DNA from: Nitrospiria bacterium
Lineage (GTDB): Bacteria > Nitrospirota > UBA9217
Assembly (NCBI GenBank): GCA_919902495.1
Contig: CAKKRC010000028.1
Location: 1 to 64,000 of the forward strand
Length of the DNA: 64,000 nt
Direction: 5' to 3'
The first letter of the stretch is position 1. Each line of letters opens with the position of its first letter. The notes beneath the pieces were generated by a model. That model was given only the letters and a program-made list of their open reading frames with translations. It was not told the origin of the DNA and ran no database searches. Positions 33,329 through 38,612 of this stretch are shown one piece after another. The position numbers were made by a program, and so were the translations under genes.

Positions 33329-33654
33329 CATACCCTGATAATACCACATCGCAGTTCTTGACAATTTCCGGCATGTATTTATAATCGGGATAATCCCTTC
33401 AATGACCTTTGCTCGCTTTTCCGCTAGTGCATTCGTACGTATATAGTTTGGAGAAGCTGAAGTCTTAAGTCATGCGTCCTGTTTTACTGTCATAGCATCA
33501 ATAGAATGATAGTAAGCAGTCTCATCCTTCTTAAACGCATCGCTGCTCAAGCCGGATAGATGCTATATGAAATAACGATGTTGCAATCTTGAGACGCTGT
33601 GAAAATCACGACTACATGGTCAGATCGCTCGAAACTCTTGTAAGGAGCAACCTG
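33329..33654. other. Upstream region of secreted-protein trio
   Basis: 326 bases of lower GC than the flanks. It contains one strong promoter at 33358-33385 and no supported gene. Confidence 0.5.
33358..33385 (+). promoter_or_regulatory. Consensus promoter for the secreted-protein trio
   Basis: TTGACA (33358-33363), 16-base spacer, TATAAT (33380-33385), both hexamers perfect. Confidence 0.7.
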
Positions 33655-34872
33655 ATGGGCATAATGAAAATGCTTGTTATAGCCGCTATTCTTCTGTGTT
33701 CGCCCAGCAGCGTTTTCGCCGGATGGTCCGCACCCCAAGAGGTCCTTTCGGGAGCATGGGGAACCGGAGAGCAGCTGTTTGGAATTGTCGAGAGATATAA
33801 TATGGTTGAGTTCCCGAAGGGATTTGTCGTGGATGATGAAGGGAGCATTATTGTCGCAGACAGTGTGAACAGACGAGCGAAAGTATATACAGACAAGGGA
33901 CGGCTCAGAGCCATCATTAAACCCCAACTAGAATATGAAGATATTGAACAATGGCCGACGTCAATTATCGCTGCTTGGAACGGCAAACTGTTTGTGGATG
34001 CGGGAGAGCACTTTCAGTTTTATGATTACGATGGCAAACTCGTTAGCGATTTTAAAGTACCGGACGCCCGATTTCGAATGTTGCTGAAGGACGGCAGCAT
34101 CATCGTTGTTATGGTAGGAACCCCCCGGGGGTTTCGAAGATATACCTACAGTGGGAAAATGCTCGAGACATACACGGACAGGCCGCGGGAATTGAGCTTT
34201 GTCGAGCGATTTAATGAAGAAAAATCGAACATTCCGGAAATATGGAACCGGATCATCTATTCCGATAAAACATACAGCATTGTTGAGGCGGGATATTTCC
34301 ATCGTGGTTACGTACGTGATAAATACGACAATTTGTATGATCTCTATAATCCTGTTTACCGCTTCGATAAATGCGGCAATCCTTCGGCCAAGGTTGATCT
34401 GCCGCAATCGCAATATGAAGAAATCCGCCCCTCAAGGGGGGATTACGGTGCGCTTTCTGAGGCGATAGCTGAGTATGGCAATCCCTTTGTTTCATCAATG
34501 GGGGATGTTTACCTATGGAAACGCACGCCAACGACGTACAGTATTCTTAAGTTGACGTGGAGTAATGAACAAAATCCGGGTGTTTCCTGGCAAAATGAAC
34601 CGAGAAATCTTACGGCCTCTACGACCACGTCAGGAATAGATCTTTCGTGGGACACGTCCCTGCATGATCCCGGATGCGTTACCGAATATGAGATCGGACG
34701 AGCGATGCAATCTGGTGGTCCCTATACGTCAATTGGCAGAGTGGCCAAGGGGGTCTTGCGATATCTGGACAGTTCAATACCTTCCAGGAACATGTATTTC
34801 TACGCAGTTCGAGCGGTCATGCATGGCGAATACTCTGGTTATTCTAACGAGGCAATAGGAAGTGCCCGGTGA
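33655..34872 (+). CDS. Secreted propeller-like protein with FN3-like C-terminus, paralog 1
   Basis: 405 residues. AAGGAG precedes this ATG, and the signal peptide ends at VFAG. The mature start WSAPQEVLSGAWGTGEQLFG is shared in outline with the next two genes. Residues 30-300 look like an NHL-type beta propeller (GFVVDDEGSIIVAD, GKLFVDAGEHFQFYDYDGKL). Residues about 310-400 are fibronectin-III-like, with HDPGCVTEYEIGRAM and YFYAVRAV. It is likely a surface or periplasmic binding protein. Base composition is AT-richer than the flanks, suggesting recent acquisition. Function unknown. Confidence 0.75.
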   Translation: MGIMKMLVIAAILLCSPSSVFAGWSAPQEVLSGAWGTGEQLFGIVERYNMVEFPKGFVVDDEGSIIVADSVNRRAKVYTDKGRLRAIIKPQLEYEDIEQWPTSIIAAWNGKLFVDAGEHFQFYDYDGKLVSDFKVPDARFRMLLKDGSIIVVMVGTPRGFRRYTYSGKMLETYTDRPRELSFVERFNEEKSNIPEIWNRIIYSDKTYSIVEAGYFHRGYVRDKYDNLYDLYNPVYRFDKCGNPSAKVDLPQSQYEEIRPSRGDYGALSEAIAEYGNPFVSSMGDVYLWKRTPTTYSILKLTWSNEQNPGVSWQNEPRNLTASTTTSGIDLSWDTSLHDPGCVTEYEIGRAMQSGGPYTSIGRVAKGVLRYLDSSIPSRNMYFYAVRAVMHGEYSGYSNEAIGSAR

Positions 34873-34941
34873 TGGCAGAGATGGTGTTGCACTTGCTGTA
34901 TATGCTCGATGGCATACAGCAAGCAGCGGATCGGAGATAGA

Positions 34942-35937
34942 ATGAAGGCCTTAATGAAGTCGATTGCGGCGATCGTGATCATCGCCCTGCCCGCGTATGC
35001 GGTGGCCGACTATATCGGTCCAGAAGAAATAGCATCCTGGAAATGGGGAACGGCAGAAGATCAGATCGGGCCGGGCAGGGACCAGTGCGACATCGATTAC
35101 CATCCACTTTTAGCGGTCATGCCGGACGGAAGCATCTATATCAATGATATTGGCAACACTGCGCTGAAAATCTATACGAACGGTGTTCTTCAAAAGAAAT
35201 CGAAATCGAACTGCGATACGTTAAGAGTGATGGGCGTTCAAGGCTTGGAAGAGGGGCGAGGGGAAGTTACGTACAAACGATTATCAGAATACTCCACTGA
35301 AATAAAAGCAGTCTTTAAGGACAAAAATTACCAGTCTGGAACATTCTATAGAGACAAGTCTGGAAATATATATACCGTAGCCAGGAGAGAGGTTCGACGA
35401 TATAACAAAGAAGGATACTATGTGGGTAATTTATTGACAGCCACTGATGATCATACGGTGTATTACGCCGTAATCGAGCCGGGCGGCAAACGATCTGGTC
35501 CATACTCATACGCCGAACAGGCTATTGGGATAAGGAATCTTGTGATCGGTCCCGATGGCAATATTTACTGCGAAAAAAGGTCTCACGATGGGTTCCATCT
35601 TCTCAAATGGACATGGCGAGAGGCTCAGGAGCTTTACGGATTGCCTGACACTCCTCGCTACGTAGAAGCGTCCAGTTCCCCAAATGGAATTATAATCCGG
35701 TGGTGGGGAGTTCTTCAGGGCAACGAATCCATAACTGCATATGAGTTTCTCCGCTCGAAGAAATCAGGCACTTCATCCTATACTTCACTGGGTATCCTTC
35801 AGAGAAAAGATATTGCGGGCTTTGCGTCTTTCGAAGATAAGACTGCAGAAAAGGGGATCACATACTACTATCGGATGCGCTCCATCTCAGGAGATAAGTA
35901 TTCCGTATATTCGAACGAGGCCATCGGAAGGCGATAA
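34942..35937 (+). CDS. Secreted propeller-like protein with FN3-like C-terminus, paralog 2
   Basis: 331 residues. The ATG with GGAGATA upstream is preferred over an in-frame ATG 33 bases earlier. The signal peptide ends near YAVAD. It begins YIGPEEIASWKWGTAEDQIG, matching paralogs 1 and 3, but the propeller part is about 60 residues shorter. The C-terminal FN3-like domain ends ISGDKYSVYSNEAIGRR, nearly the same closing as paralog 1 (YSNEAIGSAR). It ends 11 bases before the third gene. Confidence 0.72.
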   Translation: MKALMKSIAAIVIIALPAYAVADYIGPEEIASWKWGTAEDQIGPGRDQCDIDYHPLLAVMPDGSIYINDIGNTALKIYTNGVLQKKSKSNCDTLRVMGVQGLEEGRGEVTYKRLSEYSTEIKAVFKDKNYQSGTFYRDKSGNIYTVARREVRRYNKEGYYVGNLLTATDDHTVYYAVIEPGGKRSGPYSYAEQAIGIRNLVIGPDGNIYCEKRSHDGFHLLKWTWREAQELYGLPDTPRYVEASSSPNGIIIRWWGVLQGNESITAYEFLRSKKSGTSSYTSLGILQRKDIAGFASFEDKTAEKGITYYYRMRSISGDKYSVYSNEAIGRR

Positions 35938-35948
35938 GGAGCATATTC

Positions 35949-37463
35949 ATGAGGAGACTTCTGCTGTCCTTGCTATTCGTTGTACTTGTCCGGCCTGTAC
36001 CTGTGTTAGCGGATTGGAGCGGTCCCGAGATTATCGTATCAGGCACATGGGGCGCTGCGGAAAATCAGTTTACGGTGGAGTCGACCGATATGGGTGATAT
36101 TTACCCTACAGAGTTTTTCGTGCTCGCTGACGGGGCCGTCATCATTCAGGAGGGGAAGCTCAAAGTGTACCGGAATGGAGCGTTTACAGGAGTACAGAAC
36201 TATGATGGGCACATCGAGTTCTGCGACCAGGCAATCGTGGTCGTGCCCGAGGGGCGGGAAGACGGTAAACCGGTTGACCCGGACATCTCGTACTATGACT
36301 CGGATGGTCGGCTGAAATGGAAAGTGGCAGCGAAAAAGTATTCCGGAAGTTTGAAATGGGTTGGACGGGATTGTACATTCTGGACGATGGATAAGGAGAA
36401 GATGTATCGCCGCTATTCGCCAGCAGGAGCACTACTGGAGACGAGACTTCATCGAAAAGAGATTCATCATGAGCGCCTGAACAACGGACAATATCGTACT
36501 ACAATTACCTATAATGAAATAGCGTATGTAATCACACGTAGAAATGAGTACGCCTATAATCGATATGTGCAGGATACGAATAAGCTGCTTTATGGGATTA
36601 AGGGCAATTCTGTTGATGTTCTCGATCAATGCGGCAAGATCATCGACACCTTGCAACTGCCGAAAGACATTAAATTCCAAGGCGGTGAAGACAACGACCA
36701 TGGCCGGTACCAGTTTGTTCACGATGAGTATGGAGAACCCTTCGTGGATGCTCACGGGAATATATATACCTGGAGGCGCACACCGGCAAGTTTTAGCATA
36801 CTCAAATGGTCCCGCCGAGCCGGGCCAGTCGCTTCGCCTGTCCCCGATGCTCCACTTGAGCCATTAGCTGTAACCGTTTCCTCCGGCCTGTACGTCACGT
36901 GGCGACAGTCGCCGCACGATCCCGGATGCGTTACCGGATATGACCTCAGCAGGGCCATTGACCGATGCGGACCCTATACAGCCCTGGCTAGGGTCGAGCG
37001 CGGTGTTCTGAAGTACAAGGACTCATCGGCGGACCCTGGAACGACATACCATTACCGAGTGAGATCCATTGCAGGAAAGATGCACTCCGCTTATGCAACG
37101 ACACCATCCTCCGTGAATACCGGCTGTCCGGGGCAAAGCCCCTATGAGATGATGCGCCGGTATTTTCAGGATAAAACATATTTTGCCGACAAAAGATCAT
37201 ATAGTCTAGGAGATATAGAGATGTGGAAAACCGACGGCGGAGTGTATTCCGATGTTGACAAGAAACTGATTGTAAAAGCTCTGCGCAATGAAATTTATGC
37301 ACGTCATGGCAGGGCATTTGAGAGTACGGAAATGATCAGGATATTCGAAGCAGTATCTTGGTACAAACAGAGAAACAATTTCTCTGATTCTGAGTTGAAC
37401 GAAATCGAGAGAAAGAATGTTGAGTTTATAGTGGGATATGAAAAAAAGATGGGGTGGAGATGA
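35949..37463 (+). CDS. Secreted propeller/FN3 protein with C-terminal YARHG domain, paralog 3
   Basis: 504 residues. Signal peptide to VLAD, then WSGPEIIVSGTWGAAENQF as in the paralogs, propeller-like repeats, and an FN3-like domain (HDPGCVTGYDLSRAI). It alone has an extra domain (residues about 405-500) with LRNEIYARHGRAF, EAVSWYKQRNNFSD and LNEIERKNVEFI, the YARHG module of extracellular proteins. AAGGAG lies 7 bases before the ATG and overlaps the end of the previous gene region, so all three are one transcript. Role unknown; cell-surface binding is plausible. Confidence 0.77.
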   Translation: MRRLLLSLLFVVLVRPVPVLADWSGPEIIVSGTWGAAENQFTVESTDMGDIYPTEFFVLADGAVIIQEGKLKVYRNGAFTGVQNYDGHIEFCDQAIVVVPEGREDGKPVDPDISYYDSDGRLKWKVAAKKYSGSLKWVGRDCTFWTMDKEKMYRRYSPAGALLETRLHRKEIHHERLNNGQYRTTITYNEIAYVITRRNEYAYNRYVQDTNKLLYGIKGNSVDVLDQCGKIIDTLQLPKDIKFQGGEDNDHGRYQFVHDEYGEPFVDAHGNIYTWRRTPASFSILKWSRRAGPVASPVPDAPLEPLAVTVSSGLYVTWRQSPHDPGCVTGYDLSRAIDRCGPYTALARVERGVLKYKDSSADPGTTYHYRVRSIAGKMHSAYATTPSSVNTGCPGQSPYEMMRRYFQDKTYFADKRSYSLGDIEMWKTDGGVYSDVDKKLIVKALRNEIYARHGRAFESTEMIRIFEAVSWYKQRNNFSDSELNEIERKNVEFIVGYEKKMGWR

Positions 37464-37494: not shown

Positions 37495-37635
37495 TTATTC
37501 TTCCGGCTCCGGAAAACACACCGGACAATAGGCCTCGCCCTCGTCCCGAGGGCAAACATGGCCTCACTCGGGGCAGCAGATGCAGTCCTGGACCGCCAGA
37601 CCGCAGGCATTGCAGATGCTTTCTTGCTCTTTCAT
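37495..37635 (-). CDS. Possible selenoprotein: 46-residue zinc-ribbon-like protein with in-frame UGA
   Basis: Too short for routine gene calls. Reading from the ATG at 37635 gives MKEQESICNACGLAVQDC then ICCPE, an in-frame TGA at 37564-37566, then GHVCPRDEGEAYCPVCFPE and TAA. If UGA is read as Sec, the protein has CxxC, CCPE-U-G and CxxC elements, with Sec at the second position of a CPxCG knuckle, also a CxxU redox pair. The start overlaps the methyltransferase stop (TGATG) and has GGAAGG upstream. A SECIS-like hairpin follows the UGA directly. A nonsense mutation of a Cys codon is the alternative. Confidence 0.5.
37531..37563 (-). promoter_or_regulatory. SECIS-like stem-loop directly after the UGA
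   Basis: Minus strand: GGCC, then GCCCTCG-GGA-CGAGGGC (7-bp perfect stem, loop begins with G), then GGCC pairing with the first GGCC. The loop starts 17 bases after the UGA, inside the 16-37 base window and loop rule described for bacterial SECIS elements. Confidence 0.5.
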
Positions 37636-38612
37636 CACAATCCCTTCCTTCCCGTGACCACCACCGTATCACCCAGGTCCTTCTTCGTGATCTTCCGGCA
37701 TCCCACCTTCTTCAGCCATGCGGTCATCTCGCGCGGCGTGTAGCTGCGCCCTTCCGGCGTATTTACGAGCATGTTCACGGAGAAGAGCGCGCCCGGCAGG
37801 GGAGATGCGCGGTCCTCGGCGAGGGTGAACTCGTGGACGGCGATGGTGCCCTTTGGGGCGAGCGCATCGTAGACCTTGCCCAGCAGGGCCAGGTTTTCGA
37901 GGGAACTGTGGGAGTGGAGTACCTGGCTCAGGAGGGCCAGGTCGTAGCCGTTTCCAATGTCGTCAAAATGGAAATCGCCTCCCCGGAAGGTGACGTTCTT
38001 TACGCCGGCCTTCCGGATCATCTCGTGGGCTATCTCGACGGTATTGGGAAGGTCGAAAAGAGTGACCTCGATCCCCCGTTCCGCGAGCGCGATGCCATAG
38101 GTCCCGGGCCCTCCGCCAAGGTCCAGGGCGCGCGTCACGCCGCGCAGGTCAAGCGCCTTGAGCACGCTCTCAACGCGAAGTACAGCGTTGTTATGCATTG
38201 CCCGGATAAAGACATCATGCTGCCTGCCGCCGGATCGGTTCGGCATGCCGGTCCTGACCACATCGTCGAGGCCGGACCAGTTCTTCCAGAGTATGTCCAG
38301 GTGGCGCAGCATGTCACCCTGGTACCAGGGGCTTTTCGGGAGCAGGAACTGCTTCGCCGTGGCGGTAAGCCGGTAGATGCCCCGCGATTTCCTGAGCAGC
38401 CCAAGGGCGGTGACCGCATCGAGCAGGATCTCAGTCGCCCGTGGATCTGTGTTCAGGATTTTGGCCAGTTCCGGAGCGGCCACACCTTTTCCCACATGTT
38501 CGAATATTCCCAGATTGTTCGCGGTCATCACCACCCGCGACGCACGGAACCCTCCCGAGATCCTTGCAAACTCCTGTACCTGTTTTGCGAACTTTTTGTC
38601 CATGGCCTTCAT
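37635..38612 (-). CDS. SAM-dependent O-methyltransferase, acetylserotonin-OMT family
   Basis: 325 residues. An N-terminal dimerisation winged helix (residues 10-95, with TDPRATEILLDAVTALGLL) precedes a class I Rossmann fold with the SAM-binding LDLGGGPGTYGIAL, the acidic strand ending VTLFDLPN and GGDFHFDDIGNGYDLALLSQ-type motif IV. Small-molecule O-methylation is typical; some relatives act in carotenoid, polyketide or tetrapyrrole pathways. The start overlaps the upstream YkgJ-type gene by ATGA, and the stop overlaps the small UGA-containing gene. The substrate is not evident. Confidence 0.88.
   Translation of the reverse strand: MKAMDKKFAKQVQEFARISGGFRASRVVMTANNLGIFEHVGKGVAAPELAKILNTDPRATEILLDAVTALGLLRKSRGIYRLTATAKQFLLPKSPWYQGDMLRHLDILWKNWSGLDDVVRTGMPNRSGGRQHDVFIRAMHNNAVLRVESVLKALDLRGVTRALDLGGGPGTYGIALAERGIEVTLFDLPNTVEIAHEMIRKAGVKNVTFRGGDFHFDDIGNGYDLALLSQVLHSHSSLENLALLGKVYDALAPKGTIAVHEFTLAEDRASPLPGALFSVNMLVNTPEGRSYTPREMTAWLKKVGCRKITKKDLGDTVVVTGRKGL

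Follow-up and report, generated by a model that had tools for sequence, protein, structure and literature searches.

A 46-codon gene in the window, the 64,000-nucleotide stretch of a Nitrospirota genome analysed here (contig CAKKRC010000028.1), very probably encodes a selenoprotein in which one in-frame UGA is read as selenocysteine (Sec). Comparative genomics, in genomes with Sec-decoding genes, indicates translation of this UGA, at a position where the other members always have Cys. As set apart by name, motif and model, the protein very probably represents a new, uncatalogued selenoprotein family of Nitrospirota.

A 46-codon gene with an in-frame UGA

The gene lies on the minus strand and is coupled to the gene upstream of it. 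The features of the locus are:

37495..37635, minus strand: putative selenoprotein gene of 46 codons that runs from ATG to TAA and contains a single in-frame UGA; member of a conserved family with the same motif
37564..37566, minus strand: UGA, predicted selenocysteine codon, residue 24, in CCPEU-GH; UGA in 65 genomes and Cys forms in 28, TGA, TGC and TGT being the only codons there among the aligned loci
37643..37648, minus strand: Shine-Dalgarno-like GGAAGG, 7 nt 5' of the ATG, read directly
37635..38612, minus strand: upstream O-methyltransferase gene (PF00891 and PF08100), with translational coupling through TGATG; L042 and L082 have this neighbour too
37537..37553, minus strand: SECIS-like hairpin with a 7-bp GC stem and a GGA loop that lies 17 nt from the UGA; it fits the published bacterial SECIS constraints, and UGA homologues have stronger such hairpins than Cys homologues

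Read directly from 37635 to 37495 on the minus strand, the gene is MKEQESICNACGLAVQDCICCPE-UGA-GHVCPRDEGEAYCPVCFPEPEE-TAA, and its ATG has the A in common with the O-methyltransferase stop codon, TGA. The UGA occupies the second-Cys place of a CPxCG motif and, together with C21, makes a CxxU pair. The sequence-only reading had described the minus-strand frame, its TGATG coupling and the upstream GGAAGG, all of which read back as first noted, and the sequence likewise bears out the position that it gave to the UGA in both motifs. With only 46 codons and a UGA at codon 24, genes of this kind would be missed or cut short by ordinary gene-calling programs. Just past the end of the gene, the plus strand carries three tandem paralogous genes (33589-37463; 427, 342 and 504 aa). 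A search for plasmid carriage of the gene gave no match.

A family distributed over Nitrospirota

When 99 Nitrospirota genomes were searched with tblastn, more than a dozen contained the frame, carrying UGA or Cys at the corresponding codon. Scanning 84,980 species genomes with an alignment yielded 49 loci, of which 48 were full relatives; their labels were nearly all Nitrospirota, Nitrospiraceae or Thermodesulfovibrionia, with one Deltaproteobacteria and a few without a phylum label. When a profile was run against 396 sampled Nitrospirota genomes, the family was present in 92 genomes from 59 genera, and it is thus common in this phylum. These carriers had UGA in 65 cases and Cys in 28, with both forms in two; one further weak match, in G063, had only a TAA. 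With homologues in dozens of genomes, a chance open frame is ruled out.

The family motif is CxxC-x6-C-x-CC-x2-(U/C)-[GS]-H-x-C-x2-D-x-GE-x2-CPVC-x-P. C8, C11, C20, U/C24, H26, C28, C37 and C40 do not vary, and C18 and C21 hardly do, C21 of the CxxU pair being Phe in two UGA members (L080 and L082). Two copies, one with UGA and one with Cys, were seen in G113 (L054 and L071), G255 and G412; the UGA copy of G255 (L139) also has diverged residues.

Codon usage at residue 24 and selection after the UGA

In the 48 colinear loci the codon at the Sec site was TGA in 27 and TGC or TGT in 21, and no other codon occurred. The homologues that the earlier reading had proposed to look for, aligning through the UGA and with UGA or Cys at this position, were therefore found. 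The alternative reading that the UGA is a true stop, leaving a 23-residue peptide followed by a decaying remainder or a separate peptide, agrees with the standard meaning of UGA and with evidence that is of sequence alone, and a few members carry further disruptions (the TAA of G063, and a TGA at Gly33 in L067). Against it, the residues after the UGA are better conserved than those before it, with a mean pN/pS of 0.21 downstream versus 0.34 upstream in 25 UGA members, which argues that the downstream part is translated and under purifying selection. The alternative codon is, moreover, always TGC or TGT and never another sense codon, and the UGA forms are confined to genomes with Sec-decoding markers. 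We thus regard a true stop as extremely improbable. A frame that is simply decayed in relatives, named at the outset as the finding that would speak against recoding, was not seen, and both decay and a genuine stop were rejected on the conservation past the UGA.

On a weakly resolved tree of 36 columns, at least seven switches between UGA and Cys were needed, and the near-identical sisters L047 and L061 have UGA and Cys, respectively. These repeated switches and the sister pair imply that the UGA/Cys contrast does not reflect one old split.

The TGA at Gly33 is a separate observation. In L067 (5998-6570), and also in L131, the Sec site has Cys, and upstream of tadA and in frame with it a TGA replaces the conserved Gly33; the relative L133 has GGA at that codon. 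This second TGA may be an error, decay or a second recoding.

A SECIS-like hairpin associated with the UGA

The hairpin of the window, GCCCTCG-GGA-CGAGGGC (37553..37537), starts 10 nt 3' of the UGA, and G-U and A-U pairs lengthen its stem to 10 bp (-14.3 kcal/mol). The perfect 7-bp stem, the GGA loop and the distance of 10 bases from the UGA, all part of the sequence-only reading, are confirmed. Published bSECIS constraints (loop of 3-9 nt, stem of 4-16 bp, G in the first two loop positions and spacing of 16-37 nt; PMC13188914) were applied by script: the window hairpin falls within them, as do most members of the main clade, while a five-member subclade is weak in this respect. A bSECIS-shaped hairpin this strong follows just 0.5% of the 2,015 TGA triplets in the window.

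Treating related members as independent, as all our hairpin counts and tests do, the best hairpin averaged -7.2 kcal/mol in 27 UGA members versus -3.2 kcal/mol in 22 Cys members (Mann-Whitney p=2.2e-4), and the difference between UGA and Cys hairpins held relative to synonymous recoding (p=2.8e-5). An earlier version of the test, performed on the whole 42-nt fold, agrees. For single members the folding test is modest (p=0.04 for the window). Third codon bases point the same way: in 22 main-clade UGA members those within the stem are near-invariant (C12 22/22, G18 22/22, G24 21/22), whereas those outside it vary. Gly33 is encoded by GGG in 22 of 27 UGA members versus 4 of 22 Cys members. As judged from these comparisons, the hairpin appears to belong to the UGA members more than to the coding sequence as such. 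The five UGA members with weak hairpins (L049, L050, L051, L054 and L073) share an [SN]LDxGE motif; in them a longer or otherwise different element may serve.

Sec-decoding genes in genomes with the UGA form

The earlier reading had proposed looking for selenocysteine genes in the window genome. It encodes selA (E 3e-159), a selB adjoining selA that includes a SelB-wing domain, and a tRNA-Sec above the Rfam cut-off, so that all three markers are present. Over the family, selA was found in 59 of the 65 UGA genomes, and each of the 65 has at least one of selA, selB and tRNA-Sec. The six without selA have SelB (G362 and G372) or tRNA-Sec above the cut-off (G006, G188, G263 and G438), and the absent genes therefore look like assembly gaps. 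G188, listed as 99% complete, gave two tRNA-Sec matches above the cut-off (C1:231988 and C16:80860), with selA and SelB not found.

Three Cys genomes lack selA (G036, G364 and G257), and G257 has SelB. In the Cys-only genomes G036 and G364 (listed completeness 100% and 88%) no selA, selB or tRNA-Sec was found, absence from a draft genome being weaker evidence than presence. Presence of the gene went together with presence of selA (82/9/95/210, Fisher p about 1e-24, a test that shared ancestry inflates).

These markers also bear on translation of the UGA as Cys, or Trp, through near-cognate read-through or a suppressor tRNA. Cys would suit the column, and such decoding is compatible with the sequence data alone. 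However, selA, selB or tRNA-Sec occurs in all 65 UGA genomes, SECIS-like hairpins are stronger in the UGA members, and Cys members just use TGC or TGT; we therefore consider this kind of read-through very unlikely. Decoding as selenocysteine, as first proposed, is strongly supported by the UGA and Cys homologues, the Sec-decoding markers, pN/pS and the hairpin contrast, and from the markers and the hairpin we infer Sec insertion. SelB and tRNA-Sec would decode the UGA, aided by the stem-loop that begins 10 nt downstream.

TATAAT boxes close to the start codon

Of 48 scored members, 16 had an exact TATAAT no more than 20 nt 5' of the start, versus 6 of 249 longer genes from the same loci, with start codons assigned by script and by eye. 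There are 5-10 nt between the end of the box and the start codon, a Shine-Dalgarno sequence is not evident, and the arrangement resembles that of leaderless mRNAs. The loci with a box about 5-10 nt before the start are:

L047, L048, L055, L056, L061, L063, L066, L069, L070: TATAAT before the start
L075-L078, L081, L084, L086, L087: TATAAT before the start, further loci

From their upstream sequences, the TATAAT-bearing members are candidate leaderless mRNA genes.

Gene neighbours and fusions to TadA

Clustering of the neighbours of the loci revealed no operon common to all members. In 13 of 49 loci, tadA (tRNA adenosine-34 deaminase, recognised by motifs) lies directly downstream and often overlaps; this coupling is a feature of one clade. 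One UGA member (L050) and four Cys members (L044, L062, L132 and L133) encode the module and TadA as a single in-frame fusion. In the UGA fusion (L050:6001-6624, from G109) TadA lies 3' of the UGA, and by eye its TadA could begin in frame either at the fused start 5' of the UGA or at FMRLAL, where there is an internal ATG. The genomes of three fusions, G109 (L050), G103 (L044) and G121 (L062), have a single detectable tadA each. The clade of the window has the O-methyltransferase gene upstream (window, L042 and L082), and most other clades have unrelated neighbours, which were named by eye as RarA-like, YajQ-like, methyltransferase and YceD-like. As neighbours differ between clades, the TadA link may reflect inheritance of a single arrangement and not function. 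The TadA fusion offers a first lead to a partner and raises a possible link between selenium and tRNA editing.

Possible metal sites and function

No Pfam model scored above its cut-off, and the window protein is far below the zinc-ribbon gathering score; the few zinc-ribbon matches in other members were weak (best E 0.0012). NCBIfam models gave chance-level matches only, none above the cut-off, and nothing convincing came from a PDB sequence profile search, a PDB fold search or an Rfam search near the gene. AlphaFold models were of low confidence, both for the module alone (pLDDT 70, pTM 0.38) and within the TadA fusion (pLDDT about 50-75), and Foldseek gave no fold match for one such model of the module. 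The zinc knuckle of the sequence-only reading is thus plausible but unproven, with weak Pfam matches and a low-confidence predicted fold. With low-confidence models and no fold match, any metal sites and redox role rest on the conserved residues.

Ten conserved residues (C8, C11, C18, C20, C21, U24, H26, C28, C37 and C40) could form two metal (Zn or Fe) sites. Since ten potential ligands would fill two tetrahedral sites with two to spare, this count suits a CxxU pair of C21 and Sec24. Sec24 could act as the redox partner of C21 or as a selenolate ligand beside it. The net charge of the 46-codon protein is -8, which makes nucleic-acid binding unlikely. Tentatively, then, the family's residues suggest an acidic two-metal module with Sec in a CxxU redox or metal-ligand site; such a Cys-rich protein might guard partner proteins, buffer metal for them or act on them as a thiol/metal redox switch. 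For one clade this partner would be TadA, a zinc enzyme, coupled or fused to the module.

Given a selenoprotein, two other roles were weighed. As a structural zinc adaptor for translation-related partners such as TadA, the protein would use Sec merely as an oxidation-resistant zinc ligand. The 13 loci with tadA directly downstream, the several fusions, one of them with UGA, and a charge that favours protein over nucleic-acid binding are in line with such an adaptor; however, neighbours are unrelated in most other clades and a structural role alone leaves the retention of Sec unexplained, so that we rate it as rather doubtful. We hold a rubredoxin-like electron carrier, with Sec replacing one of four Cys around iron, to be unlikely: the spacing of CPxU[GS]...CPVC resembles rubredoxin and zinc-ribbon knuckles, and there is a weak profile match to rubredoxin chain 4tpu (E 0.0099), but the family has ten conserved potential ligands as against four, Pfam rubredoxin models do not match it above the cut-off, and no redox partner gene is common to its neighbourhoods.

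A wider version of the redox-switch reading, which we put forward as a long shot, would make these phylum-wide minimal selenoproteins with Sec in a two-metal redox/metal switch for partner enzymes, one lineage having its TadA fused 3' of the UGA. If true, production of full-length TadA in the fusion lineage would depend on selenium supply. The UGA/Cys switches, the UGA-linked hairpin and the Cys-only members without detected Sec genes together form a natural experiment on why Sec is kept.

Comparison with known selenoproteins

A 2026 inventory comprises 119 prokaryotic selenoprotein families and subfamilies (PMC13188914, Table 1), and deep-Sep added nine new selenoprotein families (PMC12013277). 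Compared by name, motif and NCBIfam model rather than with every representative sequence, neither source contained a match to the family motif. In the literature covered, mostly the main text of open papers, there was no earlier report of the family or of a link between Sec and TadA.

Nearest in character are FmdB and NF041197. The FmdB-family selenoprotein, a putative regulatory protein from the GOS metagenome (PMC2398784, PMC13188914), is likewise small and Cys-rich, has Sec in CxxU or UxxU and has many Cys homologues. The present family differs by its CC-x2-U-x-H-x-C between two CxxC pairs and by the lack of an FmdB model match: TIGR02605 gave none in 16 members searched at E<=1, nor in 47 members for which the best 25 of 31 families were considered. 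OS_HP3, or hypothetical protein DW (NF041197; PMC13188914), is also a small selenoprotein with two CxxC pairs, but its Sec motif is RxU/GxU; NF041197 gave no match in the complete list for 16 members at E<=1, nor in 47 members at E<=10 among the best 25 of 31 families. The Pfam zinc-ribbon and double zinc-ribbon domains Zn_Ribbon_1, Zn_ribbon_3 and DZR, and also rubredoxin, share the CPxCG...CPxC-like knuckles, from which the family is distinguished by its extra Cys/His ligands and by predicted Sec at the second knuckle position.
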